NCBI GenBank assembly: GCA_017463155.1
Contig: JAFTPT010000053.1
Location: 1 to 64,000 of the forward strand
Length of the DNA stretch: 64,000 nt
DNA from: Blautia sp.
Lineage (GTDB): Bacteria; Bacillota; Clostridia; Lachnospirales; Lachnospiraceae
Direction of reading: 5' to 3'
A program made the translations under genes and the position numbers. Positions 13,013 through 47,112 of this stretch are shown here, in pieces. The first letter of the stretch is position 1. Every line of letters begins with the position of its first letter. Below the pieces are notes generated by a model. It saw nothing but the letters and a program-made list of their open reading frames with translations, was not told the origin of the DNA and made no database searches.

Positions 13013-15415
13013 TCACATATGGTCAAAGGAGGTCCTGTTGATGACTTCATCCTGGATCATGCCGCTGAGCCGCGTGAAGTAGGCACTGTAGCCTGCGACA
13101 CGGACCACCAGATCCGGATGCTCCTCGGGCTTCACCTTGGCGTCCTCCATATCCTCCCGGGTGACGACATTGAACTGTACGTGCTTGCCGCCGTGAGTCA
13201 GGTACGTCTTGATCATGGAGCCCATCTTCTTCAGGTCTTCCTCGGTCTTCATGGAGTTCGGATGGAACTTCATATTCAGAAGGGTTCCCTGATAGGGATC
13301 CTGGTTGACCTTCATGGCGCTGGAGAGGACGGCCAGCGGGCCGTTCATGTCCTTGCCGTGGTCCGGGGAGAGGGAAGCGTCCGCCAGGATCTCGCCGGTC
13401 TTACGTCCGTCCGGCGTAGCGCCGGTCACCATACCGCCGGGCTGATGTGCCGAGATGGAGATGGCGTTGGGCGTTACCTTGCCGCCGAAGGCCGTGTCCA
13501 TGGAATAGCAGGTGTCTGCGAAGAACTGGTAGACTTCCGCGACCAGTGTATCAACATAATCGTCGTTGTTGCCGTATTTGGGCGCCTTGAGGAAATCGGC
13601 GCGCATATCCTCGTACCCCTCCCAGTTGGCGTCAAGCGCCTCCAGGAGCCGGGCCATGGTATATTTCTTATCCTCGTATACGAGCTTTTTAATGGCGGCG
13701 AGGGAATCGCCGGTGTTGACGCCGCCCACGGCGCCCAGAAGGCTTCCGTTTTCAAAATCGAAATGCCGGTCGAGCATATCTTTGCCGGAGGAAACGCCGT
13801 CCTTCATGAGTGCGGAACGGAACGGATCCGGGAAAAGCTCCCGCTGTGCGATGATCTCGACATTATTCCGCTCGGCAGCCATATGCATCAGGTAATCGAA
13901 CTGCTTGTAGAACGCCGCCTTGAACTCGTCGAAGGTTTCCATCTTTGTGATATCGCCCGTCTCGATCCCGACCTTTTCGTTTGTATAACGGCAGAAGCCA
14001 TTATGCATGAAAACGTCAAAGGCCTGGGCGATGATGAAGAAGGTGACCACCTGGCTCCGGGTGCGGGCCTGTACATTGCCGTCCACGCAGCCGGTCGCAC
14101 AGTAGTCTCTGGCCTCCTCGACCGGCATATCGCCGTTCAGGAAGAAGTTGATGTAGCTCTTGTCGCTCAGGAACGCCGGCATGCCAAGGCCGGTCTTGAC
14201 GACCTCGCAGGCTTTGAGAAGCAGCTTTTCCGGCGTATTCTCATGGACGCGGACCGTGACGGTAAAGTGCGGCAGCTGTGTGTCGCGTGCAGACTCCAGA
14301 AGAAGGTACGACAGTTCATTGGTGGCGTCATTGCCGTTCTCATCCACACCGCCGATCGTCCAGTTGTACCACTTGGCCATGCCGGAGTTCTTGGCGCGGT
14401 TCGCCTTGCCGGAGACCCGGTTGATCTTCATGACCTTGCAGCGCATGATCTCAAGGTATTCGAGCACATCGTCATCGGTAAGCAGTCCGTTGTCGATATC
14501 GTGACGATAGTAGGGATACATGTACTGGTCAAAACGTCCCGCCGTGGTGGTGGGGGAGGGGCAGGCCAGCAGGAAAGCAAACCAGAAGGACTGGAGAGCT
14601 TCGGGGAACGTCTCGGCCGGTTCATAGGGAACCTTGCGGCAGATCCGTGCCATTTCGGTGAGCTCCGCCTTACGCTTTTCGTCGGTCTCTTCGGCAGCCA
14701 TCTTATCGGCCAGATCGGCATAGCGGCCGGCAAAGCGCACCCAGGCCTTGAAGACGCGGATGACCGCTTCCCAGTATTTCTTTTTGGCAATGGAGTCGGC
14801 GGAAAAATAGCGAAGATCCCGCAGGCATTCCTCCGCCTCGGCAATGATGGACTTTGCCCCGTCCTTCAGTACCTTTTCAAAATCGATGCACACCAGGAAG
14901 AAGCCGGGTCCCAGGCCATAGCCCGACATGGCGAAGCCGCCGCCGGAGCCGCCTTTCCGGTCCTTCCAGGGAGGAAGGATCACGCCTGATTTCATGAAAG
15001 GCCACATACGGTCGTTCATGCCGAGGGATTCCGACAGAGCGTCCACCAGATTCTTGTTGAGGGCGTTGTTCGCGAAACGCTCGTTCAGCCGGTAGAGTTC
15101 CTCCTCGTCCTTGGGGTCGATGGTGTAGATCTCACTTTTTAAGGATTCCACTTCATCTTTTGTCCAGACACCGTACTCGTACTGCATTTCCATGCCGAAG
15201 GGCTTGCTGGCACCGGAACCGCAAAGCAGGTCGTCTTCCTCGATGAAGATCGGAATATTGTCAAGAATGTGTTCGTGCAGTTTGGCTCTGCGGGTGATCA
15301 TGGCCTCACCGCCGGTCTGATCCAGAGATTCGTTGGCCAGACGGAACAGGTCGATACAGAGCGGATACTTGTTGACCCGCAGGCTTTCTTTCATTTTTCT
15401 GACTCTTTCACGCAT
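13013..15415 (-). CDS. glycyl radical enzyme (pyruvate formate-lyase-like), GCVD type
   Basis: Oxygen-sensitive radical enzyme of the PFL/GRE superfamily, 800 residues. The PFL domain covers about 1-650 and the glycyl radical domain about 680-800. The glycine is G775 in VVRVAGYSAYF and the thiyl cysteine is C443 in ATGCVDGNV. Known dehydratase and lyase GREs (glycerol, propanediol, choline, hydroxyproline, isethionate) have GCVE; here D445 replaces the general-base Glu. GAGGAGG precedes the ATG. It follows a UroD-like gene across 106 bases holding a dispersed repeat and precedes a PrpD-like gene. No activating enzyme lies in this operon; the only one in the window is at 49880. Reaction and substrate are unknown. 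Confidence 0.93.
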   Translation of the reverse strand: MRERVRKMKESLRVNKYPLCIDLFRLANESLDQTGGEAMITRRAKLHEHILDNIPIFIEEDDLLCGSGASKPFGMEMQYEYGVWTKDEVESLKSEIYTIDPKDEEELYRLNERFANNALNKNLVDALSESLGMNDRMWPFMKSGVILPPWKDRKGGSGGGFAMSGYGLGPGFFLVCIDFEKVLKDGAKSIIAEAEECLRDLRYFSADSIAKKKYWEAVIRVFKAWVRFAGRYADLADKMAAEETDEKRKAELTEMARICRKVPYEPAETFPEALQSFWFAFLLACPSPTTTAGRFDQYMYPYYRHDIDNGLLTDDDVLEYLEIMRCKVMKINRVSGKANRAKNSGMAKWYNWTIGGVDENGNDATNELSYLLLESARDTQLPHFTVTVRVHENTPEKLLLKACEVVKTGLGMPAFLSDKSYINFFLNGDMPVEEARDYCATGCVDGNVQARTRSQVVTFFIIAQAFDVFMHNGFCRYTNEKVGIETGDITKMETFDEFKAAFYKQFDYLMHMAAERNNVEIIAQRELFPDPFRSALMKDGVSSGKDMLDRHFDFENGSLLGAVGGVNTGDSLAAIKKLVYEDKKYTMARLLEALDANWEGYEDMRADFLKAPKYGNNDDYVDTLVAEVYQFFADTCYSMDTAFGGKVTPNAISISAHQPGGMVTGATPDGRKTGEILADASLSPDHGKDMNGPLAVLSSAMKVNQDPYQGTLLNMKFHPNSMKTEEDLKKMGSMIKTYLTHGGKHVQFNVVTREDMEDAKVKPEEHPDLVVRVAGYSAYFTRLSGMIQDEVINRTSFDHM

Positions 15416-15420
15416 ACGGT

Positions 15421-15523
15421 TTCCTCCTCTAATAACGCATGTTATTATCAGACCAAGTCTGTCGGATGCCAGTGCTGTCAGCCACTCACGCTTTGCGTTC
15501 GCGGGACAGTACTAGGCTCCTCT
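15421..15523 (-). repeat. about 100-base intergenic element, copy 1 of 2
   Basis: Read on the - strand, this fills the gap from the UroD-like stop codon to the GRE ribosome-binding site. It is nearly identical to 39633-39735 on the + strand; both contain ACTGTCCCGCGAACGC, GTGAGTGGCTGACAGCAC and TGGCATCCGA. A small stem ACGC-AAA-GCGT is kept while its loop differs between copies. Confidence 0.75.
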
Positions 15524-16595
15524 ATTGCCCCAGTGCTATACGGCTGTAACGATAAAGCGCTTCCCTGTATTCCGGAATGGCCCGGCGCATCACGGCGAAG
15601 AAGGGCTTCTTCTGGAATTCCGGACAGTAGTCGTCGGCGAATTTTTTTGCAAGCTCCTTCGCGTGCTCGGGATCCCGCTCTGTACGGCAGTCGTAGGGGG
15701 TGATGCCGATCGCGATCTGATCCCCGTAGGTCTCATAGATATAATCGAAATCATTGATAGCCTGTCCGCCCCACTGGTCCATGCCGCACTCGATCATGAT
15801 TGGGACGAGCCGTTCGTTCTTGCCGCAGCAGTGGAAATCAAAGATGATGCCGCGTTTGTGGCAGCTGTCCACGACCCGCTTGACATAGGGAGCGATCATC
15901 TCACGGATCGTATCCGGATTGATGAGAGGTCCTCTCTGGGAGCCCCAGTCATCGTGGAACTGAAACATATCGATATGGAAATAGCGGTGGAGATGATCGA
16001 TGAGATCATCATAGAAATCCGCAAGCTTGTCGAAAAGCTCGTGGACGGCGTCCTCCTGATCTTCGTCCATCAGCGCGACCAGCGCGTTCTGCATGGTCAT
16101 AAAGGAGATCAGACGCTCAAACATACCGGTAAACTGGACATATTCCGTGACCCGGTCCGTGTCAAAATAGATACCCCGGTTCCGGTCGGCACAGCCCTGC
16201 CAGTCATAGGAATCGAGATCCGGGAAGACGACCTTTTCCTTCCAGTCGTTGGCATCGTCAAACAGGTACAGCCCCTGCCTGACCATGGAACCGCCGACTT
16301 CCGGTTCCCAGATCCATTCAAGGCCGAACATATCGAGCCCGCCTTCTTCGCCGGGCGCGAGGCCGTCGACTTCATTGACCATGCCCCTGGCCTTGCAGTC
16401 CGGGATGATGTTCGGGTTGAAATTGATGCAATCGCAGTGCGCCGGGATCCATTCACAAGGTTCATCCTTCCGGAACATGCGATAATAGTTTTCCTTGGCG
16501 GAAATGGGCGTGTTGTAATGGGGGATCGTTTTCGCAGCCAGCAGTTCCGGAGAGTATTCTCCGATCACTTCCATGTCTTTCTCTGTAAAGCGCAT
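15522..16595 (-). CDS. uroporphyrinogen decarboxylase-fold (MtaA/CmuA-like) protein
   Basis: A 357-residue cytoplasmic protein of the URO-D superfamily (PF01208). It has the family pieces EPEVGGSM, FHDDWGSQR and the HxC-type zinc site FDFHCCGKNERLVP seen in MtaA-like methyltransferases. True heme HemE residues and a heme operon are absent. It is similar to the proteins at 48762 and 62995 (ISAKEN/TPREN start region, WGSQR block). It is the first gene of the - strand operon with a GRE, PrpD, CapA and Tct. No corrinoid protein is present, so methyl transfer cannot be assumed; a decarboxylase or accessory role is equally possible. Confidence 0.88.
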   Translation of the reverse strand: MRFTEKDMEVIGEYSPELLAAKTIPHYNTPISAKENYYRMFRKDEPCEWIPAHCDCINFNPNIIPDCKARGMVNEVDGLAPGEEGGLDMFGLEWIWEPEVGGSMVRQGLYLFDDANDWKEKVVFPDLDSYDWQGCADRNRGIYFDTDRVTEYVQFTGMFERLISFMTMQNALVALMDEDQEDAVHELFDKLADFYDDLIDHLHRYFHIDMFQFHDDWGSQRGPLINPDTIREMIAPYVKRVVDSCHKRGIIFDFHCCGKNERLVPIMIECGMDQWGGQAINDFDYIYETYGDQIAIGITPYDCRTERDPEHAKELAKKFADDYCPEFQKKPFFAVMRRAIPEYREALYRYSRIALGQ

Positions 16596-16915
16596 TGACC
16601 TTCCTCCTCACTGAGCAGATGATTTTCTACTGTCTGTACCTCATTGTGACCAATAGACAGAAGCCTGCCTCATACTGCTGTATCCTGCATGGCAGGCAGA
16701 CGGCTGAATGATCACCTGAATATCGTGAATTTTCACAAAAATATGGCGCTTTTTCATCCCATATGTTATTATTTTAACATCAGGTGAGGAAGAAGCATAT
16801 TCGTTAAACCGTTGAAATTCGAATGAGCATTTACCTCACAATCACGTACACAAAATGTTCTGAATACGAACAGAGCGTGCCTGCGCCGGAATATGCGGCG
16901 GATAAGGAGACAACG
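16596..16915. promoter_or_regulatory. divergent control region between UroD-like gene and PucR-type regulator
   Basis: A 320-base gap without a gene. It holds inverted copies of an 8-mer, TCACCTGA (16712-16719) and TCAGGTGA (16780-16787), the short palindrome GTGAATTTTCAC (16725-16736) and a small CCTGC-ATG-GCAGG hairpin (about 16684-16697). These are candidate operators for the divergent regulator. I see no strong consensus promoter, which fits activator-dependent transcription. Confidence 0.45.
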
Positions 16916-18511: not shown

Positions 18512-18520
18512 GGACTTCTC

Positions 18521-18577
18521 TGCACAATTGTGCAGATTCCGGTATTCCGGAGACAAACCGGCTTTTTGTGGTAGAGT
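18521..18577 (+). promoter_or_regulatory. operator plus promoter, site P1 (GCA-N4-TGTG)
   Basis: The palindrome TGCACAATTGTGCA (18521-18534) is followed after exactly 37 bases by a -10-like TAGAGT (18572-18577); the -35 position is non-consensus. The same 14-mer type and 37-base gap occur at 21019 and 23323. It likely controls the gene at 18665. Confidence 0.6.
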
Positions 18578-18664: not shown

Positions 18665-19711
18665 GTGAAGATCGAAAAAAAAGTTATCTCAAATCTTACA
18701 AAATGCTACGCGATTGCGCCGTTATTCTATCAGGGGAAGGAGCATTTCCTTGTCGCCGCGGAGAAGCAGGACCCCTGCCTGTTATTTGATATGGAAGGAA
18801 ATCAGGTGGATAAGATCTGGGACGGTCCGGGCGGCGTCATGAGCATGGTGCAGGTGCCGGGAACGGACGGACAGTATCTGTCCACATACAAGTTCTATTC
18901 ACCCAATGATTCCAAGGAGGCAAAGATCGTCATTATCACGCCGCGTGGCAAAGGAGACTGGGAGGTCCGCACGCTGGTCTGCCTGCCGCACGTGCACCGG
19001 TTTGACCTGCTGGAGCGTGACGGAGAGGTGTATCTGATCGCCTGTGCGTTGAAATCCGGGCATGAATACAAGGATGACTGGAGCCATCCGGGCAAGGTCT
19101 ACGGCGCAAAGCTCCCGAAGGATCTCTTTGCATGTAACGAAGAGAATCAGCTGGAGCTGACGGTGCTTAAGGACAATATGCTTAAGAACCACGGCTATTA
19201 CCGGGTCCTGAAGGACGGCGTCCAGACAGCGCTGGTCTCCAGCAATGAGGGCGTTTTCCGGTTCACACCGCCGGAATCCGGCAGCAGCACATGGCAGATC
19301 GAGCAGCTGCTCGACACGCCCGCAAGCGATGCGGTCCTGGTGGACATGGACGGGGACGGGGAGGAAGAGCTCTGCGTGCTTGCGCCGTTCCACGGTGAAC
19401 GAATCAGCATCTACCGGAAAAAAGAAGGCTCTTATCAAAAAGCATATGATTTTCCGGAGGATGCGGAATTTCTTCATGCTATATACGGCGGCGAACTCTG
19501 CGGAAGGCAGACATTCGTGGTCGGCCACCGGAAGGGGAAAAGGAATCTCATGGCCTTTACATGGTCGGCGGAAAAACAGGAGTACGTCTATGAGATCATT
19601 GATGAGGACAGAGGCCCTGCCAATGTTTTCCGGTTTGTGAGGGAAGGAAAGGATATTCTCATCGCCGCGAACCGGGAGACGGACGAGATCGCCATGTACA
19701 CACTGGAATAA
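18665..19711 (+). CDS. beta-propeller-like (FG-GAP/VCBS-type) protein of unknown function
   Basis: A 348-residue soluble protein whose beta-rich sequence suggests a propeller. One segment, VDMDGDGEEELCVLAPFHG (about residues 228-246), matches the calcium-binding FG-GAP/VCBS pattern, and similar shorter blades surround it. There is no signal peptide, which is unusual because such proteins are mostly secreted. GGAGAG lies upstream of the ATG. It is transcribed alone from promoter P1 and ends at a terminator. The shared operator motif links it to the SDR and ABC-transporter genes downstream, so it may bind or process a sugar-like ligand. Function is not assignable. Confidence 0.75.
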   Translation: MKIEKKVISNLTKCYAIAPLFYQGKEHFLVAAEKQDPCLLFDMEGNQVDKIWDGPGGVMSMVQVPGTDGQYLSTYKFYSPNDSKEAKIVIITPRGKGDWEVRTLVCLPHVHRFDLLERDGEVYLIACALKSGHEYKDDWSHPGKVYGAKLPKDLFACNEENQLELTVLKDNMLKNHGYYRVLKDGVQTALVSSNEGVFRFTPPESGSSTWQIEQLLDTPASDAVLVDMDGDGEEELCVLAPFHGERISIYRKKEGSYQKAYDFPEDAEFLHAIYGGELCGRQTFVVGHRKGKRNLMAFTWSAEKQEYVYEIIDEDRGPANVFRFVREGKDILIAANRETDEIAMYTLE

Positions 19712-19740
19712 GACTGAAAACAGATTCTGCGCATATTCGA

Positions 19741-30644: not shown

Positions 30645-32270
30645 ATGGCTGAATTTATTACTGCCAGAAGAGCCGCAGAGCTGATCCCCGACGGCGCGAC
30701 CGTGGGCGTCGCCGGCATGGGACTTTCCGGATGGGCGGAAGAGCTTGCCTGCGCGATCCGCGACAACTTCAAAGAGACCGGACATCCCAGGGATCTGCAC
30801 CTGAAACAGGGCAGTGCTCTCGGTGACTGGGGCGTCGGCAACAGCTTTATCGGCTGGGACCGCGTGAAGAGACCGGACGGACCGGACAAGGAACATGGAG
30901 CCCGGGGCGCCACACGTTTCGGTGAGGCCGGCGAGGGCCTGATCAAAAAATGGACCAGCGCCCATGTGGGAAGTGCTTTTGCACTCTGTGACCTGGCCAG
31001 ACAGGAAAAGCTTGAGAGCTACTGCCTGCCGCAGGGCGTCATCATCAATCTGTGGCGTGAGATCGGCGCGGGACGTCCCGGCCTGATCACCAAGACCGGC
31101 CTTGGAACCTTTGTGGACCCGCGTGTTGAAGGCGGCCGCATGAACAAATGCGCCAAGGATGAACTGGTAAAGGTCATCGAGTTCAACGGCGAGGAATACC
31201 TGTTCTATCCGAGCTTCAAGGTAGATGTGGCACTGCTGCGCGGTACCATCGCCGACGAGAACGGCAATATCTCCTTTGCGCGGGAGAGCGTGATCAACGA
31301 GGGCTTCTCCGTGGCCAACGCGACCAAGAACTGCGGCGGTATCGTTATCGTGCAGGTGGAATACCTGGCCAAGAAGGAGACCCTGAATCCCAAGGACATC
31401 AAGATCCCGGGCAACCTGGTCGACTACGTGGTGGTCACGGATGATCCCATGTCCTCCTGGCAGACCGAAGGCAAATACTGGGAGCCGTCCTTCGATGGAT
31501 ATCTTCGCAAACCGCTTTCCGCCATCGAGCCCCTTCCCATGGATGAGCGCAAGATCATCTGCCGGAGATGCGCCATGGAGCTGGAAAAAGGCTATGTGGT
31601 CAATCTGGGCGTCGGCATGCCGGCCGACATCGCCAAGGTCGTGGCCGAAGAGGGCCTCATCGACCAGATCACCATGAGTACCGAGAGCGGCATGGTGGGC
31701 GGCGTTCCCTCCGCACTGCCGAGCTTCGGCTCTGCCTACAACCCCGAAGCGATCATCACCCCGAACGAGATGTTCGATCTGATCAGCGGCGGCGGCCTTG
31801 ACATGACATGCCTCGGCATCGGCGAAGCCGATAAGTACGGCAACAATAACGTCAGCCGTATGGGCAGCCGTCTGACCGGCCCCGGAGGCTTCATCGATAT
31901 CACGGCCCGGACACCGAAGGTCCTGTTCGCGGGCACCCTGGTCGGAAAAGCCAAATATGAATTCGGCGACGGCAAGCTTACGATCACCGAGGAAGGCACG
32001 ATCCATAAGTTCGTCGATACCGTCGGTCAGATCACCTTCGCCGGACAGTACGCGCCGGAATCCCAGGAGGTCCTGTTCGTGACCGAGCGCGCCGTGTTCA
32101 AGCTGATCAACAAGAAGATGACCCTGATCGAGATCGCTCCCGGTCTGGATCTGCAGAAGGACGTTCTGGATCAGATGGGCTTCAAACCGGAGATCGCACC
32201 GGATCTCAAGGTCATGGATGAGGGCATCTTCCGCGAAAAATGGGGCGGCCTTGGTAATTATCTGAAATAA
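30645..32270 (+). CDS. acyl-CoA:carboxylate CoA-transferase (YdiF/Pct type, CarA-like position)
   Basis: A 541-residue class I CoA-transferase with both subunit domains fused, as in propionate CoA-transferase and E. coli YdiF. The N-terminal glycine loop VGVAGMGLSGWAEEL (about 21-35) and the active-site glutamate E347 in STESGMVGG are visible. It moves CoA from a product acyl-CoA to a fresh substrate acid. In caffeate-reducing Acetobacterium, CarA does this and is followed by CarB, CarC, CarD and CarE; the same order is seen here. GGAGAGG precedes the ATG. The acid is unknown, perhaps an aryl-acrylate or other enoate. Confidence 0.88.
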   Translation: MAEFITARRAAELIPDGATVGVAGMGLSGWAEELACAIRDNFKETGHPRDLHLKQGSALGDWGVGNSFIGWDRVKRPDGPDKEHGARGATRFGEAGEGLIKKWTSAHVGSAFALCDLARQEKLESYCLPQGVIINLWREIGAGRPGLITKTGLGTFVDPRVEGGRMNKCAKDELVKVIEFNGEEYLFYPSFKVDVALLRGTIADENGNISFARESVINEGFSVANATKNCGGIVIVQVEYLAKKETLNPKDIKIPGNLVDYVVVTDDPMSSWQTEGKYWEPSFDGYLRKPLSAIEPLPMDERKIICRRCAMELEKGYVVNLGVGMPADIAKVVAEEGLIDQITMSTESGMVGGVPSALPSFGSAYNPEAIITPNEMFDLISGGGLDMTCLGIGEADKYGNNNVSRMGSRLTGPGGFIDITARTPKVLFAGTLVGKAKYEFGDGKLTITEEGTIHKFVDTVGQITFAGQYAPESQEVLFVTERAVFKLINKKMTLIEIAPGLDLQKDVLDQMGFKPEIAPDLKVMDEGIFREKWGGLGNYLK

Positions 32271-32284
32271 GCACAGGATTTACT

Positions 32285-33895
32285 ATGGAACTGATACAAA
32301 AGACAGTTGGAGAATTTATTCCGGAGAATGCCGCCCGCTATGGCGATAAAACAGCCATGCAGGCGGGCGACTTCGTCTGGTCCTACAGGGAACTCGACGA
32401 GATTACGGACGCCCTGGCCTGCAGGCTGGTGCACAGGTACGGGGTCCGCAAGGGCACGCATATGGGCATCTGGAGCGTGAACACACCGGCGTATGTGTTC
32501 TTGTTTCTGGCCGCCCAGAAGCTTGGTGCCGTCCCGATTCCCCTGAATACCTGTTACAAGCCTGCCGAGCTATCTCCGATCCTTGTCAATATGGATGTGG
32601 AGATCCTGTTCTACGGCGAGGGCTGGAAGGATCTGGTGTACAGCGATCTGATCCCGGAGATCGGAAAGCTGGCCCCGGAAGTGCGGGAGTATGTTCCCAT
32701 GAACACATTCGGCGGTTCGCCCTTTATGGGACCCGGGAACTTTACCGAGGAGGAGCGTTCAGACGAAAGCCGCGGGGAGATCCGGAAGATGACGGCTGAG
32801 GTTTCCGCCGAGGATACCGCCTGCATCGTGATGACGTCCGGTACGACGCTTTCCCCGAAGGGAGTCATGCTGTCGCACTACAACATCGTCAATGACGGAC
32901 GCTCCGCCGCCCTGTACATGCACTGGACCGACGAGGACAAGATGCTTCTCGAGCTTCCGATGTTTCACTGCTTCGGACTTATCACCGGCGTTGTGGTATG
33001 TACGATGAAGGGGATCTGCATGGATATCATCCCGTATTTCGGGACTGCCCTCGTATGGGAGATCATCGAGAAACACGGCATTACCATTCTGAACGGTGTT
33101 CCCAGCGTTTTCCTGGCGTTGGTCCGGAAACCCGAGTACAAAAACACGGTCAGCGAGAAGCTGAAGTCCGGCGTGATCGCGGGCTCCAGGCTCCGGTATG
33201 AGGATTATATGGAGATCTGCCGGCACTTTCCCAATATGCACCTGCAGACCAGCTACGGGATGACGGAAAGCTCTCCGAGCGTGACGTTCCCGGACTGGGA
33301 TGAAGCCCCCGAAAAGAAGGCCGCAAGCTGCGGAAAGTTCATGGACCGGATCGAGGGACGGATCGTCGATCCGGCTTCGGGCGAGATCCTGAGCGTCGGC
33401 ATGAACGGCGAACTTCAGATGAAGGGCTTCAATATCACAAAGGGATATTACAATATGCCTGAGGAGACCGCCAGAGCCTTTACGGAGGACGGCTGGCTCC
33501 GCACCGGAGACCTGGCACGGTTCGACGAGGAGGGCAACCTCTACATTACCGGGCGCCTGAAGGAACTGATCATCCGCGCGGGCGAGAATATTTCCGTGGT
33601 GGAGATCGAGTCGGTCATCGATGATTCCGGTATGGCGGAGGCGAGCAAGGTCGTGGGAGTCGATTCCAGCTTCCGGCAGGAGGAGATCGCGGCCCTGGTC
33701 GTGCCAACGGATCCGGACACCTTTGATCCGGAGGCCTTGAAGGAATATATGAAGCCCCGCCTGGCGGTATACAAGATCCCGGATTATATCTTTACAGTGA
33801 ATGAGCTGCCGATGACCGGCAGCGGCAAGATCGATCTGAAAGCGGCGAAGGAGCTGGCTGAAAAGCGCGTAAAAGAAAGTATGACAAGCCATTGA
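32285..33895 (+). CDS. acyl-CoA synthetase (AMP-forming, CarB-like position)
   Basis: ATP-dependent acid:CoA ligase of the ANL superfamily, 536 residues. The P-loop VMTSGTTLSPKGVMLSH (about 182-198), TSYGMTESS (about 323-331), TGDLARFDEEG (about 399-409), the hinge GRLKELIIRAGENIS and the C-terminal lysine in TGSGKIDLKA are all present. It likely primes the pathway by making the first acyl-CoA, after which the CoA-transferase recycles CoA. The gap to the transferase is 14 bases; the ribosome site (AGGA) is weak. Similar CaiC-type ligases act on carnitine, an alternative reading. Confidence 0.92.
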   Translation: MELIQKTVGEFIPENAARYGDKTAMQAGDFVWSYRELDEITDALACRLVHRYGVRKGTHMGIWSVNTPAYVFLFLAAQKLGAVPIPLNTCYKPAELSPILVNMDVEILFYGEGWKDLVYSDLIPEIGKLAPEVREYVPMNTFGGSPFMGPGNFTEEERSDESRGEIRKMTAEVSAEDTACIVMTSGTTLSPKGVMLSHYNIVNDGRSAALYMHWTDEDKMLLELPMFHCFGLITGVVVCTMKGICMDIIPYFGTALVWEIIEKHGITILNGVPSVFLALVRKPEYKNTVSEKLKSGVIAGSRLRYEDYMEICRHFPNMHLQTSYGMTESSPSVTFPDWDEAPEKKAASCGKFMDRIEGRIVDPASGEILSVGMNGELQMKGFNITKGYYNMPEETARAFTEDGWLRTGDLARFDEEGNLYITGRLKELIIRAGENISVVEIESVIDDSGMAEASKVVGVDSSFRQEEIAALVVPTDPDTFDPEALKEYMKPRLAVYKIPDYIFTVNELPMTGSGKIDLKAAKELAEKRVKESMTSH

Positions 33896-33950
33896 CCCGT
33901 TGCCTTAAGATAAAAGCAAGCAGCACAGAATAAAGAACGGAGGAAAAGTT

Positions 33951-35093
33951 ATGATTCTATCAGCAAAATATGAATTGATGAGAAAGAACTTTCGTAATTT
34001 TGCGGAGACTGAATTCACAACAGAAATTCAGGAAAAACTGGATCGCGAAGGCGGCTTCGACGAGGAACTGTTCGCGAAGATCGCAAAGAACGGCTTCTGC
34101 GGGATCAAGATCCCTGTGGAGTACGGCGGACAGGGCGGCGACAGCCTGGCCTATGTCCTGATGAACGAAGAGTTCTCCCGCATCTGCCCGGTTGGCGCTA
34201 TCTATGCCAACACCCCCAACTCCCTGGGAAGCGGCCCGCTTCTTGCCTGCGGTAACGAAGAGCAGAAGCAGCGGATCCTTCCGGATGTGGCGGCCGGACG
34301 CAAGCACATCGTGTTCGCCCTGACCGAGCCGGGCGCCGGTTCCGATGCAGGCGGCACGCTGACGACAGCAGACGCTGACGGAGACGACTTTATCCTCAAC
34401 GGCAGAAAGTGCTTCATCTCCGGTGCACCGATGGCCGATTACGCGATCATCTACGCAAAGACGAACAGAGCCCTTCGTGGAAGCCGCGGTATCTCCATGT
34501 TCATCCTTGATATGAAGCTTCCGGGTGTATCCGTAGGTAAAGGCGAGATGAAGATGGGTATCAACGGATATCCGACCAGTGATATCAGCATGGAAAATGT
34601 CCGCGTCAGCAAGAAAGACCTTCTCGGACCGCTGGACAACGGCTTTATCACCGCCATGAACACCCTGAACGGCGGACGTCTCGGCGTTGCCGCACAGTCC
34701 CTCGGCGTCGCACAGGGCTGCCTGGACGAGGCCATCAAATACTCCAAGGAAAGAAAACAGTTCGGCAAGCCGATCTGCGCGAACCAGGGCATCAGCTTCA
34801 TGATCGCCGAGATGGCGACCGAGATCGAGGCAGCCAGGACCCTGATCTACACCACCGCTATTGAAAAGGATCAGGATGCGAAGGATTCCTTTGTCAAGTG
34901 TGCCATGAGTAAGTATTATGCTTCCGAGATGGCGAACCGCGTGGCTTACAAGGCCGTCCAGATCTTCGGCGGATACGGTTACATCAAGGACTACAGAGTC
35001 GAGCGCCTGTACAGAGACGTGCGCGTCATGAGCCTTTACGAAGGAACCACACAGGTACAGCAGATGGTCATTTCCGGTGCATTGTTAAAATAA
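33951..35093 (+). CDS. acyl-CoA dehydrogenase / enoyl-CoA reductase (CarC-like position)
   Basis: FAD enzyme of the acyl-CoA dehydrogenase family, 380 residues and full length. Signature 1 is FALTEPGAGSDAGG (about 119-132); signature 2 leads to the catalytic glutamate E364 in SLYEGTTQVQQ. With the downstream ETF genes it probably works in the reductive direction, saturating an enoyl-CoA as caffeoyl-CoA reductase (CarC) or CaiA does. GGAGG precedes the ATG. The neighbouring PucR-type regulator (37144) may sense the substrate. Confidence 0.93.
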   Translation: MILSAKYELMRKNFRNFAETEFTTEIQEKLDREGGFDEELFAKIAKNGFCGIKIPVEYGGQGGDSLAYVLMNEEFSRICPVGAIYANTPNSLGSGPLLACGNEEQKQRILPDVAAGRKHIVFALTEPGAGSDAGGTLTTADADGDDFILNGRKCFISGAPMADYAIIYAKTNRALRGSRGISMFILDMKLPGVSVGKGEMKMGINGYPTSDISMENVRVSKKDLLGPLDNGFITAMNTLNGGRLGVAAQSLGVAQGCLDEAIKYSKERKQFGKPICANQGISFMIAEMATEIEAARTLIYTTAIEKDQDAKDSFVKCAMSKYYASEMANRVAYKAVQIFGGYGYIKDYRVERLYRDVRVMSLYEGTTQVQQMVISGALLK

Positions 35094-35105
35094 TAGGAGG
35101 TAGCT

Positions 35106-35906
35106 ATGAGAATTTATGTATGCGTAAAGCAGGTTCCGGATACTTCCGGAAAGGTTGCTGTCAATGAGAACGGAACACTGAACCGTGCTTCCATGCAGAC
35201 CATCATCAATCCGGATGATATGAACGCGATGGAGGCAGCTCTTAAGATCAAGGATGCAACCGGCTGCCAGGTCACGGCAGTCACGATGGGACCGCCTCCC
35301 GCAGAAGGAATGCTCCGTGAGCTGATCGCCATGGGCGCGGACGACGGCGTCCTGATCTCCGGCCGTGAATTCGGCGGATCCGATACATTCGCTACCTCTC
35401 AGATCATCGCAGGCGCACTGCATCACCTCGGCATCGGTGACGAGGATGTGGTATTCTGCGGACGTCAGGCCATCGACGGCGATACCGCCCAGGTCGGCCC
35501 CCAGATCGCTGAAAAGCTTGAGATCCCGCAGGTCACCTATGCGGGCGAGATCGAGAAGGACGGCAATGTTCTCAAGATCAAGAGACTTCTTGAGGATGGC
35601 TATATGACAGTGGAAGTCAAGACTCCCTGCCTGATCACCTGCGTCAAGGAACTGAATGAGCCCCGTTATATGACGGTCAAGGGCATCATCGAGTGCTATG
35701 ACAAGCCGATCACCGTACTGGATTATCCGGCATTGGAGAATGAACCCCTCATCGACAAGACCACCATCGGCCTGAAGGGTTCACCCACCAACATTTTCAA
35801 ATCCTTCACCCCGCCGCAGAAGGGCAGTGTGGAGATGATCCCGGGAACCAGCCAGGAAGCTGCAGATGCATTGGCAGAGAAGCTGGCCAAGAAACACATC
35901 ATTTAA
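35106..35906 (+). CDS. etfB: electron transfer flavoprotein beta subunit
   Basis: ETF small subunit (266 residues), heterodimer partner of EtfA, carrying electrons to or from the acyl-CoA dehydrogenase. The N-terminus MRIYVCVKQVPDT and GRQAIDGDTAQVGPQIAE (about 122-139) are characteristic. AGGAGG precedes the ATG, 12 bases after the dehydrogenase. In strict anaerobes such dehydrogenase-ETF sets can bifurcate electrons from NADH to ferredoxin. Bifurcation here is plausible but unproven. Confidence 0.95.
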   Translation: MRIYVCVKQVPDTSGKVAVNENGTLNRASMQTIINPDDMNAMEAALKIKDATGCQVTAVTMGPPPAEGMLRELIAMGADDGVLISGREFGGSDTFATSQIIAGALHHLGIGDEDVVFCGRQAIDGDTAQVGPQIAEKLEIPQVTYAGEIEKDGNVLKIKRLLEDGYMTVEVKTPCLITCVKELNEPRYMTVKGIIECYDKPITVLDYPALENEPLIDKTTIGLKGSPTNIFKSFTPPQKGSVEMIPGTSQEAADALAEKLAKKHII

Positions 35907-35935
35907 GCATTCGTCAGTGAAGAGAGGATAAGAAT

Positions 35936-37042
35936 ATGGCATTTATCAGTGAAAATATTGAAGAATTTCATGACATATGGGTATTCTGTGAGCAGCGTGA
36001 CGGCAAACTGCAGAACACAGATTTCGAACTTATCAGCGAAGGAAGAAAGCTGGCAGATGAGAGAGGTGCAAAGCTGGTCGGCCTGCTTCTCGGAAGCGAC
36101 GTAAAGGGGATCGCGAGCGAGCTTGGCGGCTACGGCGCGGACAAGGTCATCGTCTGCGACGATCCCAACCTGAAGGTCTATACCACCGACGCCTATGCGA
36201 AGGTTGTCTGCGATGTCGTTATGGACAAGAAGCCGGAGGTTCTCCTGATCGGCGCGACCACCATCGGCCGTGACCTGGCTCCGAGATGCGCAGCCAGACT
36301 GCACACCGGTCTTACGGCTGACTGTACACATCTGGATATCGACATGAACAAGTATCTTGACTTCCTGAGAGAGTCCTCCACCATGGAGATCGATCCGGCC
36401 AAGTTCAAGATGGAAGATACCAACCTTAAGATGACCCGTCCGGCATTCGGCGGCCATCTGATGGCAACCATCATCTGCCCGAGATTCCGTCCGTGCATGT
36501 CCACCGTGCGTCCCGGCGTTATGAAGAAGGCCGATTTTGTACAGGCCAAGGCAGATGCCTGCGAGATCGAGATGTATCCGGTCACCCTGGCGGAAGAAGA
36601 TCTGAAGACCAAGGTTCTCGAGGTCGTCAAGGCTACCCGCAAGATGGTCGACCTGGTCGGCGCGGACGTGGTCGTAGCTGTCGGCAACGGCATCAAGTCC
36701 GATGTCAAGAAAGGCCTTGAGCTGGCGGAACAGCTGGCAGAGGCATTCGGCGGCGGCGTGATCGGCGGCTCCCGTGTCGCGATCGACGAAGGCTGGCTGA
36801 GCGACGATCATCAGGTCGGACAGACCGGTAAGACCGTTCATCCGAAGATCTATGTGGCACTCGGTATCTCCGGCGCGATCCAGCATAAGGCCGGCATGCA
36901 GGACTCCGAGGTCATCATCGCGATCAACAATAACGAAGCAGCCCCGATCTTCGAAGTGGCATCCTACGGTATCGTCGGAAACCTCTTTGACGTAGTTCCG
37001 AAGCTGATCGAGGCCATGAACGCACAGAAGGCAGCCAAATAA
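35936..37042 (+). CDS. etfA: electron transfer flavoprotein alpha subunit
   Basis: ETF large subunit (368 residues). The C-terminal FAD domain shows GGSRVAIDEGWLSDDHQVGQTG (in part, about 279-300), ALGISGAIQHKAGM and AINNNEAAPIF, the standard FAD-binding pattern. The N-terminus has a short extension before the ETF fold but no cysteine-rich ferredoxin domain, unlike the characterised Acetobacterium CarE. It ends the car-like operon, with a strong terminator 35 bases after the stop. Confidence 0.95.
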   Translation: MAFISENIEEFHDIWVFCEQRDGKLQNTDFELISEGRKLADERGAKLVGLLLGSDVKGIASELGGYGADKVIVCDDPNLKVYTTDAYAKVVCDVVMDKKPEVLLIGATTIGRDLAPRCAARLHTGLTADCTHLDIDMNKYLDFLRESSTMEIDPAKFKMEDTNLKMTRPAFGGHLMATIICPRFRPCMSTVRPGVMKKADFVQAKADACEIEMYPVTLAEEDLKTKVLEVVKATRKMVDLVGADVVVAVGNGIKSDVKKGLELAEQLAEAFGGGVIGGSRVAIDEGWLSDDHQVGQTGKTVHPKIYVALGISGAIQHKAGMQDSEVIIAINNNEAAPIFEVASYGIVGNLFDVVPKLIEAMNAQKAAK

Positions 37043-39632: not shown

Positions 39633-39735
39633 AGAGGAGTTTGGCACTGTCCCGCGAACGCGAAGCGTGAGTGGCTGACAGCACTGGCATCCGATAGACT
39701 TGACCAGATGATAACATACGGTTTAAGAGGTGAAA
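39633..39735 (+). repeat. about 100-base intergenic element, copy 2 of 2
   Basis: Fills the space between the TPR stop codon and the ribosome site of the DUF4125-type gene. Nearly identical to the - strand of 15421-15523. The short sequence around 39621-39638 (AACATGCGGGTTAAGAGG) recurs with two changes at about 39714-39731, so this copy is flanked by imperfect direct repeats. Confidence 0.75.
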
Positions 39736-40468: not shown

Positions 40469-40493
40469 GAACATGCACCGCGAGGATGCTCTG

Positions 40494-42059
40494 CTATTTT
40501 CTGCGCTTTGGACGTTCAAACAGCGAAAGGGATATGCCTTCCTTCTGGTACTGCTCCCGGTAACGGAGCAGCAGGCAGGAAAAGACCAGGTTGTGCCGGA
40601 GATAAGGATCATCCATGGATTCGCCGATCAGTTCTTCGATCTTTTTGATCTTGTAGATGGTCGTGTTCCGGTGCATGAACATCTGGGCGCTGGTACGCGC
40701 GATGCTTCGGTCATTCATGAGGTAGGAGAACATGACATCGCGGAGATTGCTGCCGTAAGCCCGGTCGTAGCGTGTCAGCGTCAGGACGCCGGGGTGGCAG
40801 AGGATCACGATGTCACTGCCGCCCAGAACGGATTTCACGGATTTGGCGCAGATGTCGATCACGTTGTACTGGGTATAGCGGGCAAAGTTCATGCAGCGCT
40901 TTTCACCGTCAAGCCTGACGGCAAGGGCGATGCCGAACATGCGGTGGCACTGGCGGTACGTAACGCGCAGGGCCATGATGGAGGTGACAGGATTGCTGAT
41001 CATGGCGATCGCATGGTGCTCCTTCAGGATCTTTTCCAGCGCCTCCCGGTCAAACGTGACGGGACAGTAATGGATCTCGGAGGACAAAAGGACCACGATC
41101 TCGCCGGACAGGATGGCGATATGGCTGTCCGGAAAGAATCGTCGGACGGACTCTTCGGCCGGTACCTGCATATTGTCTGTCTCGATGCCCGGGAATTCCT
41201 CGGAGCGGATCAGGATGAGCCGCAGGTTCTTCTGCGGTGGATTCGGCAGATTCCGGAGCATGATCATCAGAGCATCGTCGGATTCGCCTGATTCGGTCAT
41301 GATCCTGGAAAAAAGATGCTGGAAGGACAGATCCTTTCCGGTCATGCGGCGGCTCTGGTTCACCAGCAGGGGTTCGCACAGGCCATGCAGGACAGCTGCG
41401 ACCGAGGAGAACAGCAGATTGCCGGCCTCTCCGATGCAGAGCAGATACCAGCCGGTTTTCGTAAACGGAAACAGCAGCACATGCTGGGTGCCGTCGATCC
41501 GGGAAACAGGCTGCTGCGGGAGGCTTTCGACCGCTAAAAGCTCTTCCAGAGCTTCCTTCCGGTTTGAGGAGCGAAGAAGCGTGGAATCAATATTGGTATT
41601 TCCGTGCAGGGAAATACTGTCATAAGAAAAACACAGCTGGTCATCCAGGAGGATGAACGATCCGTCCGTGAGCCGATGGGCAGTATCGATCAGCTGCCGG
41701 GTATTGTAAGGAACCGAAGAACCCAGTTCGATCCCTGCGTGCAGGATTTTGGACAGCAGGCGGTTCAGCCTGTTGGCGAGGACAGACATGGAAAGGTCTG
41801 TCGCAAAAAAGCTGATCCCCGGGGGAAGAGGTGCTTTGTGTAACGCGGCATTATCTCCGGCAGAGAGAAGAACACCGGCCGTATGCTGTCTGAGTACAGC
41901 ACTGCAGACTTCGGGGGAACCGATGCAGAAAAAAGCAGGATCATAATCGTCCGCTGAATCCAGCAGAAGAACGGAATCACAGCAGCAGGTCTTCTGCAGA
42001 TCGTGGCTGAAGAGAATATGTTCGCCGAGATACTGATCCAGTACGTGCAAAAAGAACAT
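40494..42059 (-). CDS. PucR/CdaR-type transcriptional regulator
   Basis: About 521 residues from the ATG at 42059, chosen because GGGAGG lies eight bases upstream; the frame is open further. The helix-turn-helix near the C-terminus reads RTSAQMFMHRNTTIYKIKKI (about residues 452-471). It diverges from the two-GRE operon starting at 42295. The tandem TTGTGCGGAA repeats in that promoter are the best candidate targets. It lacks a recognisable ligand domain, like the related proteins here. Confidence 0.83.
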   Translation of the reverse strand: MFFLHVLDQYLGEHILFSHDLQKTCCCDSVLLLDSADDYDPAFFCIGSPEVCSAVLRQHTAGVLLSAGDNAALHKAPLPPGISFFATDLSMSVLANRLNRLLSKILHAGIELGSSVPYNTRQLIDTAHRLTDGSFILLDDQLCFSYDSISLHGNTNIDSTLLRSSNRKEALEELLAVESLPQQPVSRIDGTQHVLLFPFTKTGWYLLCIGEAGNLLFSSVAAVLHGLCEPLLVNQSRRMTGKDLSFQHLFSRIMTESGESDDALMIMLRNLPNPPQKNLRLILIRSEEFPGIETDNMQVPAEESVRRFFPDSHIAILSGEIVVLLSSEIHYCPVTFDREALEKILKEHHAIAMISNPVTSIMALRVTYRQCHRMFGIALAVRLDGEKRCMNFARYTQYNVIDICAKSVKSVLGGSDIVILCHPGVLTLTRYDRAYGSNLRDVMFSYLMNDRSIARTSAQMFMHRNTTIYKIKKIEELIGESMDDPYLRHNLVFSCLLLRYREQYQKEGISLSLFERPKRRK

Positions 42060-42087
42060 ATCTGTTTCCTCCCTTTTTAATGGCTTT

Positions 42088-42116
42088 ATTATACAGGATT
42101 CAGCGGCTTTTGGCAA
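42088..42116 (-). promoter_or_regulatory. promoter of the PucR-type gene
   Basis: On the - strand TTGCCA (42116-42111), 17-base spacer, TATAAT (42093-42088), with start expected near 42081. Confidence 0.7.
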
Positions 42117-42144
42117 TGTTCCTCTGTGCAGGGACGGATGTTTA

Positions 42145-42189
42145 TTGTGCGGAATGACCATAGTTTGTGCGGAACAGGTTTGATATAAT
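42145..42189 (+). promoter_or_regulatory. activator-type promoter of the two-GRE operon
   Basis: Two identical direct repeats, TTGTGCGGAA (42145-42154 and 42165-42174), are spaced exactly 20 bases apart, two helical turns. The second overlaps the poor -35 region; a consensus -10 TATAAT follows at 42184-42189. This is the layout of a promoter that needs a bound activator. Confidence 0.65.
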
Positions 42190-42294
42190 CATAACAAGGT
42201 CATGGGAGTGAAAGAAATGACCCGTGCCCCGGCCGGAGATTTTCGTATCCCGGTGTACGAGGGTCACAACAACAAAAACTATGGAGGGATAAGC

Positions 42295-44697: not shown

Positions 44698-44712
44698 AGA
44701 AAGGAGAATGAT

Positions 44713-47112
44713 ATGGCAACCGAAAGGATCAAACGCATGCAGGCTGCACTTAAGGTGGATTCCTTCCCGTTCTGTGCGGAAAAACCGAAACTGGTGATCG
44801 AATCCTGGCGTCAGAACGAGGGCCTTCCCTCCATTCTCCGCCGTGCCAAGGCGACAGCCCACTATCTTGACAACAGAACCATCTATATCGATGACGACGA
44901 GCTGATCTGCGGCAACGTGGCCAGCAAGCCCATGGGACTGGAGGCTTCCTGCTGGGGCCCGTTCTGGGACGACGATGACCTGGACAGCATTCTCGAGGGC
45001 GGCCGCTATACCATTACGGACGAGGACCGCAAGACGCTTCGCAGCCTGGACTCCTTCTGGGAAGGCCAGAGCCGCCAGATGTACGAGTGGCAGGGACGTT
45101 TTTACGATGACGACCATCTGTGGCCCTTCATCCGCTCCGGGATTCTCTGCCCGCCGTGGACGAGCAAGGTCAAAGGACGTGGTTCAGGCGGCGCCGGCTT
45201 CGGCTGGGGCCTCGGCATCGGCCTTTCCTTCTTTGTTCCGGATTACAAGAAGATCATCGACGAGGGTATCAAGGCCCGCGTGGACGAGGCAAAGGAAGAG
45301 CTGAAAAAGCTTCGCTATGTCGACAACGATTCCTTCGATAAGGCTGATTATCTCAAGGCCTGCATCATCGCCCTGGAGGCCATGCAGCGGATGTACCACA
45401 GGTACGGCGATGCCTGCACGGCCAAGGCTGAGGAGACGGCCGACGAGACCCGCAAGGCGGAACTGCTCCGCATGGCGGATACCTGCCACAGCCTGGCTGA
45501 GAACGGCGCGCGTGATTTCCGCGACGCGATCCAGGCCTTCTGGTTCTACTGGATGATGATCACCCACGGCACCGTGCCGGGCGGCCGTTTCGACCAGTAT
45601 ATGTATCCTTACTACCGCAAGGACATCGACAGCGGAAAGATCACGGATGATGAGGTGCTTGAGCTGATCGAGTGCCTGCGCATCAAGATCATGCAGTTCA
45701 ACTTCGTATCCGGAAACGCCAAGCAGCGTGACAAATGGGCCGGCATGGCCAGATGGCACAACTTCCTGATCGGCGGCTGCGACAAGGACGGCAAGGACGC
45801 CTCCAACGAGCTTTCCTACCTGGTCATCAAGGCGGCCTACGAGGTACGTACGCCCCAGTTCACCATCACGCTCCGCGTGACCGAGGATACACCGAAGGAA
45901 CTGATGATGGAAGCGCTGAAGCTCGTGAAGACCGGCCTCGGCATGCCTGCGTTCGTATCCGACAAGAGCTATATCAACGGCCTGGTGGGGCAGGGCGTTC
46001 CGCTTGAGGAAGCCCGCGACTACGCGCTGGCCGGCTGCCTGGACCTGAACCTTCCCGGCAGATCCCGCATCAACGCCCTCGGCATGTTCATCGTTCCGAA
46101 GGTCCTCGACATCGTGATGCACAACGGCGTCATGCGTGAGACGGGAGAGCAGCTCGGACCGAAGACCGGCGAGATGAAGGACTTCACCTCCTACGAGGAT
46201 TTCGAAAAGGCCTTCAAGGAGCAGCTGTATTACTTCATGGGCATGTACAACGAGGAGCACAACATCCTCTGCCGCGTGACCCGTGAGATCAACAACGACG
46301 TCGTGCATTCCGCCTTTGCCTACGACGGCATCAAGTGCGGCCGGGATATTTCCAACCGCGTCATGCCCTACGAGAATGCATCCCTGATGAACCCTGTCGG
46401 TATGATCAGCGTCGTCAATTCCCTGGCGGCCATTAAGTATGTCGTTTTCGAAAAGAAGCTGGCGACGATGGAAGAAATGTTCAAGGCCATCGAGGCTGAC
46501 TGGGTGGGCTTTGATGAGCTGCACAAGATCTGCCGGGATGCGCCGAAGTTCGGCAACGGCATCGACCTGGTGGACAATATCGCCGCGGACATGTACAAGT
46601 TCTGGGTGGACAGCTGCAAGACCTTTACCACGATCTACGGTACCTCCCCGCGTCCCACCGGTATCTCCATCACGGCCCACGCGCCGGGCGGCGGATATAC
46701 CTGCGCGACTCCGGACGGAAGATGCTGCGGACAGACCCTGCCGGACGGCGTAGTCTCGCCGGCACAGGGCACCGATACCAACGGACCCACCGCATCCCTC
46801 TCAAGCGCCATGAAGATCGACCAGGATCCCTTCAACGCCATGCTGCTCAACATGAAGATCCATCCCACAGCGCTGAAGACCGATTCCGACCTTGAAAAAC
46901 TCGGCTCCCTGATCAAGACCTACATGCTGAACGGCGGCAAGCATATCCAGTTCAACGTGGTCGACAATGCCACACTTAAGAAGGCACAGGAGAAGCCGCA
47001 GGATTACCGTGACCTGGTTGTCCGTGTCGCCGGATACAGCACCTATTTCACCCTGCTGACACCGGCCGTGCAGAATGAACTGATCGCAAGAACGGAGAAC
47101 CGTCTGAATTAA
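44713..47112 (+). CDS. glycyl radical enzyme, GCLD type (second of a tandem pair)
   Basis: A 799-residue GRE with glycyl site G774 (VVRVAGYSTYF) and thiyl C442 in LAGCLDLNLPG, Asp444 in the usual Glu position. AGGAG precedes the ATG. It is clearly related to the upstream GRE, but the N-terminal pocket region (for example SKPMGLEASCWGPFW) differs, so it probably uses a different substrate or forms a paired system. It carries a full set of radical motifs and is not a degenerate subunit. A palindromic hairpin follows the stop. Confidence 0.93.
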   Translation: MATERIKRMQAALKVDSFPFCAEKPKLVIESWRQNEGLPSILRRAKATAHYLDNRTIYIDDDELICGNVASKPMGLEASCWGPFWDDDDLDSILEGGRYTITDEDRKTLRSLDSFWEGQSRQMYEWQGRFYDDDHLWPFIRSGILCPPWTSKVKGRGSGGAGFGWGLGIGLSFFVPDYKKIIDEGIKARVDEAKEELKKLRYVDNDSFDKADYLKACIIALEAMQRMYHRYGDACTAKAEETADETRKAELLRMADTCHSLAENGARDFRDAIQAFWFYWMMITHGTVPGGRFDQYMYPYYRKDIDSGKITDDEVLELIECLRIKIMQFNFVSGNAKQRDKWAGMARWHNFLIGGCDKDGKDASNELSYLVIKAAYEVRTPQFTITLRVTEDTPKELMMEALKLVKTGLGMPAFVSDKSYINGLVGQGVPLEEARDYALAGCLDLNLPGRSRINALGMFIVPKVLDIVMHNGVMRETGEQLGPKTGEMKDFTSYEDFEKAFKEQLYYFMGMYNEEHNILCRVTREINNDVVHSAFAYDGIKCGRDISNRVMPYENASLMNPVGMISVVNSLAAIKYVVFEKKLATMEEMFKAIEADWVGFDELHKICRDAPKFGNGIDLVDNIAADMYKFWVDSCKTFTTIYGTSPRPTGISITAHAPGGGYTCATPDGRCCGQTLPDGVVSPAQGTDTNGPTASLSSAMKIDQDPFNAMLLNMKIHPTALKTDSDLEKLGSLIKTYMLNGGKHIQFNVVDNATLKKAQEKPQDYRDLVVRVAGYSTYFTLLTPAVQNELIARTENRLN

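Follow-up and report, generated by a model that had tools for sequence, protein, structure and literature searches.

A Cys-X-Asp clade of glycyl radical enzymes with three members in a Blautia genome

Three genes for glycyl radical enzymes (GREs), termed GRE1, GRE2 and GRE3, lie in a 64,000-nucleotide stretch of Blautia sp. DNA (assembly GCA_017463155.1, contig JAFTPT010000053.1, positions 1 to 64,000 of the forward strand), hereafter the window. All three encoded proteins carry Asp in the second position after the catalytic cysteine (Cys+2). The extent of the clade defined by this Cys-X-Asp motif, its active site, its gene neighbourhoods and the reaction that it may catalyze are considered here.

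The three glycyl radical enzymes of the window

Translations and motif positions agree with the first-pass annotation of this DNA, which had placed the thiyl cysteines at Cys443, Cys443 and Cys442, each followed two residues later by Asp, and had noted intact RVAGY loops (Table 1). Both GRE Pfam domains exceed their cut-offs in GRE1–3 (PFL-like 519–534 bits, Gly_radical 103–113 bits); with these domains, the catalytic Cys and the RVxGY glycyl loop, the proteins belong to the PFL-like GRE superfamily. The hallmark of non-glycyl (aminoacyl) radical enzymes, replacement of Gly by Ala, Ser or Thr, is absent, as position 775 is Gly in 68 of the 74 clade sequences described below and falls in a gap in the other six. 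Formation of a glycyl radical with the help of an activase is putative for GRE1–3. The genome (3.07 Mb, 55 contigs; GC content of the window 55%) holds four PFL-like genes, and the fourth, on contig C10 (locus L001), encodes a GCVE enzyme.

GRE2, whose frame is open from 42202, and GRE3 are separated by 15 bases. Pairwise identity among GRE1–3 is 44–50%, so that a single reaction common to all three need not be assumed; the Asp itself is common to all three.

Extent and coherence of the Cys-X-Asp clade

Named genomes were scanned by alignment of GRE1–3, which gave at least 594 stretches, 577 of them confirmed, and the best 80 loci were kept. Of the 131 long GRE frames taken from 113 loci (GRE1–3 being counted twice), every one that scores above 643 bits against a profile of the window enzymes has Asp at Cys+2; below this value other residues are found, apart from one 580-aa fragment (638 bits) with Asp. 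A set of 192 sequences was then assembled from the locus GREs, references and 35 other GREs of 60 same-family genomes, with six duplicate rows removed. Its Cys+2 column contains 93 Glu, 74 Asp, 16 Ser and 9 other residues, and the 74 Cys-X-Asp GREs, seven of which are fragments of 496–734 aa, are monophyletic with no other type inside (FastTree, support 1.0). The clade, represented by 15 rows, is recovered with support of 100/99 by IQ-TREE under LG+G4 and of 99 in a quick LG+C20 tree. The 35 GREs from same-family genomes serve as a control: picked from rows without a locus, with PFL1-like rows and short fragments excluded, they have 31 Glu, 3 Trp, 1 Ala and no Asp at Cys+2. A further 29 GREs from the same 60 genomes (loci L005–L033) have 13 Glu and 16 Ser.

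One member counts against strict fixation of the residue. In the IQ-TREE LG+G4 tree, a GRE of Novosphingobium sp. PP1Y with Gly at Cys+2 falls inside the clade; its gene is an intact frame of 831 codons on a megaplasmid (L196, 11908–14403) and its product is 37% identical to that of GRE1 (P0001). A transposase-like gene, judged by look, lies upstream, and no activase was noticed by eye among the listed open reading frames of at least 200 aa. On these alignments, Asp at Cys+2 is the rule, with one exception among the members found.

Within the best 80 loci, record names of clade loci include Bacillota, Spirochaetales, Sedimentisphaerales, Proteobacteria, Deltaproteobacteria, Acidobacteria, Actinobacteria and others; the majority come from metagenome assemblies, and L048 is flagged as contaminated. 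The clade is uncommon: at E 1e-250 it occurs in 9 of 397 same-family genomes and in 2 of 398 genomes of a wider phylum draw, this genome being counted in both and copies being undercounted, since scoring was confined to the top two candidates of each genome.

Other residues were seen in GREs located near clade members. In L051 (12439–14883), the GRE adjoining a Cys-X-Asp GRE has Tyr at Cys+2 (GCVY) and the glycyl loop VRIGGFS, and GCQE cysteine loops occur in L040 (6313–8763) and L076 (2–1987).

Comparison with named families and structures

No named NCBIfam GRE equivalog is matched by GRE1–3 at more than 54% of its cut-off. For the decarboxylases HPAD and IAD, P0001 attains 376 of 1150 and 451 of 1100 bits, and P0002 and P0003 likewise remain far below the cut-offs. 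When 35 clade members were scanned jointly they matched broadly the same set of NCBIfam models, cut-offs being given for the first member only. A profile built from these 35 members finds clade members at 959–1343 bits, against 708 bits for the best chain in a 2026 copy of the PDB; by this score, no clade-like chain is present in that copy. No description of Cys-X-Asp GREs was found among the matches listed from the open-licence literature, judged by titles and abstract starts, which is weak evidence of absence, and nothing there combines ‘PrpD’ with ‘glycyl radical’. The enzymes very probably form a distinct, uncharacterised GRE clade. The proposal of a distinct class in the first-pass annotation, for which a phylogeny and inspection of the Cys+2 column had been suggested as checks, is supported: GRE1–3 lie in a distinct clade outside the characterised families that could be placed, with Asp fixed in all members seen but one.

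Active-site residues

Published catalytic residues were mapped onto 65 clade sequences by their offset from Cys and kept if the letter matched, so that all assignments are alignment inferences. The residue numbers of glycerol dehydratase, CutC and most of HPAD, together with HypD Phe152 and Tyr631 and BSS Arg508, are those that we take to apply. Five positions (IAD Arg226, Trp392 and Phe401, HPAD Phe214 and HypD Tyr631) did not show the published residue at the offset calculated for it and were left unused. The other HypD numbers come from PMC7077986, and those of IAD and of HPAD Cys503, Glu505 and Glu637 from PMC9248008.

The position of the CXE Glu is Asp in 65 of 65 sequences. That of HypD Asp339 is Lys or Arg, and that of HypD Phe340 and glycerol dehydratase Tyr339 is Trp, again in all 65. 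Glycerol dehydratase His164 is replaced by Leu or Phe in 62 sequences and by Asp in three, and Asp447 of the same enzyme by Ala, Val, Pro or Ser in at least 56 of the 65. In the numbering of the clade, Arg340, Lys/Arg348 and Trp349 are each present in 74 of 74 sequences and Arg453 in 65 of 74; Arg340 is aligned with an Arg of an X-succinate-synthase (XSS)-like protein, and a Gly-rich insert with Pro-Pro-Trp is specific to the clade. These conserved residues would line the pocket, and compared with the eliminases, which have a polar diol site, the clade seems to have a site of more hydrophobic, aromatic and basic character.

CXE is defined as an eliminase motif in PMC7077986; GRE1–3 and all 74 clade sequences have CXD instead, the clade being partly defined by this feature. 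A plain Glu-to-Asp variant of glycerol dehydratase was set aside, as other catalytic residues are gone too. For the same reason, the dehydratases that the first reading used as yardstick may be the wrong one. Its choice of Glu as comparator is apt for HPAD and IAD and is not universal, since 7e7l has Leu and the XSS-like protein Ser; across the GREs compared here, Glu, Leu, Ser, Asp and Gly are seen at Cys+2. According to PMC9248008, the Glu at Cys+2 of HPAD is proposed to protonate Cys, a Glu-to-Gln change in IAD abolished product, and Gln at this position is worded as being there ‘to mimic PAD’, so that PAD would itself have Gln. By analogy, Asp at Cys+2 could protonate the cysteine like the HPAD Glu, from further back; the altered base geometry or chemistry suggested in the first-pass annotation is likewise hypothetical.

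Gene neighbourhoods

GRE2 and GRE3 open a row of genes (42295–54619) with gaps of at most 168 bases, continued by a MatC-type carrier, a UroD-like protein, an activase, two HGD-D family subunits and a class III CoA-transferase. GRE1 is preceded by a UroD-like gene and followed by PrpD, CapA-like and tripartite transporter genes, an order that recurs in L034 at 74–92% identity.

Table 1. Features of the window that bear on the Cys-X-Asp GREs
Feature	Position	Strand	Remarks
Tripartite tricarboxylate-type transporter	7230..10328	-	TctC by Pfam; TctA 8312-9823, TctB 9837-10328 by position and look
CapA/PGA_cap family protein	10353..11516	-	
MmgE/PrpD family protein, downstream of GRE1	11584..13050	-	
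GRE1 (P0001), Cys-X-Asp glycyl radical enzyme, 800 aa	13013..15415	-	C443-V-D445, Gly775 in RVAGYS
UroD-like protein, upstream of GRE1	15522..16595	-	HCC at 255
CoA-transferase I, AMP-ligase, acyl-CoA dehydrogenase, EtfB, EtfA	30645..37042	+	EtfB, EtfA over acryloyl-CoA reductase cut-offs
PucR-type regulator, divergent from GRE2	40494..42161	-	
GRE2 (P0002), Cys-X-Asp glycyl radical enzyme, 800 aa	42295..44697	+	C443-L-D445, Gly775 in RVAGYS
GRE3 (P0003), Cys-X-Asp glycyl radical enzyme, 799 aa	44713..47112	+	C442-L-D444, Gly774 in RVAGYS
MatC/CitMHS-type dicarboxylate carrier	47281..48615	+	
UroD-like protein	48762..49865	+	HSC at 258; under Pfam cut-off
GRE activase, radical SAM + 4Fe-4S domains	49724..50815	+	TIGR02494 344 bits, cut-off 174; likely start 49874 or 49880
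HGD-D family subunit (2-hydroxyacyl-CoA dehydratase / benzoyl-CoA reductase type)	50859..52037	+	
Second HGD-D family subunit, adjoining first	52039..53394	+	
Class III CoA-transferase (CoA_transf_3)	53327..54619	+	Likely start 53396
Terminator-like hairpin after the 42295-54619 row	54673..54688	+	Consensus match only; 15 such sites vs 10.6 expected in region

The genes at 30645–37042 have counterparts beside Cys-X-Asp GREs elsewhere: all but the ligase in L038, and acyl-CoA dehydrogenase, EtfB and EtfA in L045. They may act in the same pathway as the GREs. Four loci combine a Cys-X-Asp GRE with adjacent HGD-D genes (the window, L045, L084 and L053, where they are fused), and three of them also have a class III CoA-transferase. 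Outside the window and L053, the labels of the HGD-D and other reductive genes were assigned by BLAST against proteins of the window, at values down to 28% in L084. As far as is known, HGD-D enzymes need a BadF-type ATPase, for which there are five matches over cut-off elsewhere in the genome; the family is also over cut-off in 8 of 14 control genomes. Clusters of the fld/had type comprise a class III CoA-transferase, an HGD-D pair, an acyl-CoA dehydrogenase and EtfBA. The same families are found near the GREs, yet the HGD-D pair of the window reaches just 104 and 88 bits against HadC and HadB (cut-offs 700 and 750), and to our knowledge a GRE is not part of such clusters.

Recurrent neighbours were counted over the whole stretch in the 50 Cys-X-Asp loci among the best 80, many of these stretches being truncated: activase in 24, CapA-like in 12, MatC-like in 11, PucR-type in 10, UroD-like in 9, Opp-type binding protein (by look) in 8, and PrpD and TctA-like in 7 each. 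The clusters look built for the breakdown of imported organic acids.

Two neighbouring Cys-X-Asp GRE genes share a strand and lie less than 1 kb apart in eight cases from seven loci (L046, L053, L054 twice, L058, L062, L063 and the window). Each pair joins different subclades, and seven of the eight combine a GRE3-like with a GRE1/2-like gene, the pair of L063 consisting of a GRE3-like gene and a deep-branching member. Tandem encoding of two different members is a new observation and is often seen. GRE3-like genes also stand alone in the available stretches of L067, L072 and L075, and the discoverers of adjacent threonyl homologues 40–50% identical regard them as functionally different (PMC11528403). 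Because of these two points, two steps of one pathway are the safer reading of the tandem GREs and a mixed oligomer the bolder one.

Several loci are unusual in content. L054, a stretch of 22.4 kb from a Bacillota metagenome-assembled genome of goat omasum, contains five Cys-X-Asp GRE frames, two of them cut off, with two tandem pairs. An island in the first 40 kb of contig 24 of genome G499 (L154–L155) has, by BLAST labels, three Cys-X-Asp GREs, PucR regulators, an Opp-like transporter, beta-lactamase-family and S15-family hydrolases, CapA-like, PrpD and DUF4125 proteins and two MatC-like carriers. In L080, a fumarate-reductase-like flavoprotein (2229–3950), a carboxylesterase (4052–5497) and two UGSC-family proteins (12618–14399 and 14790–16382) are found near a Cys-X-Asp GRE.

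Some functional themes for the window were considered and set aside. Corrinoid-dependent O-demethylation, brought to mind by three UroD-like genes, was dropped with a single B12-binding_2 match in the genome, on another contig; the third UroD-like protein (55787) is without the HxC motif. An analogy of 30645–37042 with caffeate reduction, the counterpart presumably being CarA-E, was given up, since a curated cut-off is exceeded by EtfB and EtfA alone, and the model concerned describes acryloyl-CoA reductase. Quinate/shikimate dehydroxylation remained an idea without sequence support, for which the literature turned up plant papers.

A non-coding element of ∼95 bases lies upstream of GRE1 (15426–15510, minus strand) and upstream of a DUF4125 gene (39636–39732, plus strand). 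The two copies are 88% alike over 85 bases, and the genome has five matches, the others near unrelated-looking genes. A riboswitch before GRE1 was rejected given this distribution, with no Rfam match in the window at gathering scores, and the element is probably a dispersed repeat. Elsewhere in the window, 18665–19711, 22628–23308 and 58322–59440 are reading frames by codon usage with no Pfam family at E 0.001.

Position among the known families

References in the trees were labelled by curated cut-offs (HypD, CutC, IAD, HPAD, HpfG, HpsG) or by PDB names (7e7l, 1r8w), and row L206 was recognised as XSS-like by its length and its neighbouring activase, at 439 bits against a BssD cut-off of 496. 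The PDB name of 7e7l is ‘hydroxyphenylacetic acid decarboxylase’; it is presumably the arylacetate decarboxylase AAD of Olsenella scatoligenes.

In the 192-sequence tree and, with support of 98/99, in the IQ-TREE LG+G4 tree, HPAD, IAD, 7e7l and four GREs without a name (L085, L093, L110, L115) form one group with the clade, and the same group with the XSS-like protein reaches 100 in the quick LG+C20 tree. Glycerol dehydratase, CutC, HypD, HpsG and HpfG stand apart from this group in the best trees. There 7e7l is the sister of the clade; the two have in common Arg325, a PH.T stretch and a single large subunit of ∼800 aa, and differ in that 7e7l is 32–34% identical (over the printed part), has Leu at Cys+2 and is without counterparts of Arg340, Lys/Arg348, Trp349 and the Pro-Pro-Trp insert. 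HPAD and IAD share with the clade the tree group and an acidic residue at Cys+2, which is Glu in them and Asp in the clade, where the positions of HPAD Glu637 and His536 are not kept.

A number of results weigh against a place near the decarboxylases. Approximately unbiased (AU) tests reject neither a grouping of the clade with the eliminases (p 0.148, with a quick LG+G4 tree), nor its position outside the decarboxylase/XSS group (p 0.269), nor a clade of the four decarboxylase rows without it (p 0.487). The tie to 7e7l is variable, at 0.82 in the 192-sequence tree, 87/91 under LG+G4 and 94 under LG+C20, and both 7e7l and the XSS row have long branches. Raw scores favour the eliminases slightly, or neither side: the top named model of P0001 is the eliminase HpsG (538 of 1000, over IAD); its best PDB match is glycerol dehydratase (442 bits; 7e7l 423), as is that of P0003 (463; 7e7l 379); and in the PDB search with the 35-member profile CutC, the best chain, and glycerol dehydratase (689 bits) are ahead of 7e7l (680), with HPAD far below at 454 bits. 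L110, which groups with the clade in trees, itself scores 586 to glycerol dehydratase and 413 to 7e7l. C–C rather than C–heteroatom chemistry is consequently rated only a little above even, because the AU tests reject no alternative and the raw scores lean the other way.

Proposed reaction and alternatives

The clade is read, tentatively, as a catabolic GRE class that would carry out radical C–C cleavage of a carboxylate substrate, most likely by decarboxylation; this reading as a whole, and decarboxylation in particular, are put forward at less than even confidence. In the scheme suggested by sequence comparison, the radical-SAM activase would place the radical on Gly775, as expected from the family, from where it would move to Cys443. 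The cysteine would then attack a carboxylate-bearing substrate held by the aromatic Trp349 and the basic Arg340, Lys/Arg348 and Arg453. Radical cleavage of a C–C bond would follow, with Asp445 taking the place of the HPAD Glu proposed to protonate Cys. Substrates would enter through the organic-acid transporters, and products may feed a CoA-linked reductive branch made up of the class III CoA-transferase, the 2-hydroxyacyl-CoA-dehydratase-type enzyme and an enoyl-CoA reductase with EtfBA. Both the reaction type and the order of steps are conjectural. The neighbour sets differ between loci, which also tells against a uniform scheme: one pathway cannot fit all, and the class is read as acting on many acids, with the reductive branch in some loci.

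The main competitor, implied in the first-pass annotation, is that clade members are eliminases that cleave C–O, C–N or C–S bonds with Asp replacing Glu as base. Beyond superfamily membership and the Gly and Cys loops, the best PDB and NCBIfam scores speak for it, as does the unrejected grouping with eliminases. Yet identity to glycerol dehydratase (1r8w) is 33–35%, the CXE motif is missing together with the polar positions His160/164, Asp278, Asp339, Asp447 and Thr645 of glycerol dehydratase and HypD, and the trees prefer the decarboxylase/XSS group, so that this explanation is considered unlikely.

Rather more speculative, and not expected to hold, is a new reaction class derived from the C–C-bond group and radiated in anaerobes onto many organic acids, with paired members in several phyla and an HGD-D branch in some loci. 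A pair would then be either a hetero-oligomer or the catalyst of two successive radical steps on one substrate, and the HGD-D branch an ATP-driven 2-hydroxyacyl-CoA dehydratase, which is put forward with equal caution. No pathway with two GREs and HGD-D is known to us.

Still less probable is the making or breaking of larger C–C bonds, as in X-succinate synthases, a dicarboxylate such as fumarate being either the acceptor of the addition or the unit released. One XSS-like row perhaps belongs to the same tree group, and the AU test does not reject a joint clade (p 0.427); the Arg aligned with Arg340 and basic residues after the Cys loop are found in both, and the neighbourhood includes a dicarboxylate carrier as well as a class III CoA-transferase, the latter type of enzyme being involved in benzylsuccinate breakdown as well. 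On the other side, Cys+2 is Ser in the one example, and XSS chains are among the lower PDB matches of the clade profile (MasD 507, TutD 492 bits), P0001 reaching 318 bits to TutD.

That one or more of GRE1–3 have already been characterised is very unlikely: the literature comparison was confined to open-licence papers, which leaves some room for it, but the best PDB chain scores well below the members, no named equivalog is passed, and neither the Cys-X-Asp wording nor ‘PrpD’ with ‘glycyl radical’ appears in those papers. Equally poor prospects are given to GRE2 and GRE3 as two subunits of one hetero-oligomeric enzyme, which the recurrent tandem pairs of different subclades favour and the solitary GRE3-like genes and the threonyl precedent do not.

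Significance

A new clade of a known enzyme kind, possibly with a new reaction, is the most likely outcome. The reactions of GREs are within reach of few other enzymes, and the assignment of new GRE clades has explained gut or sediment metabolites involving choline, hydroxyproline, isethionate and skatole. Being coherent, spread by its record names over several phyla and set in readable gene clusters, the Cys-X-Asp clade lends itself well to the discovery of a new radical reaction and of a new pathway for anaerobic acid breakdown. It is also a natural test of the role played by the residue two positions after the catalytic Cys.

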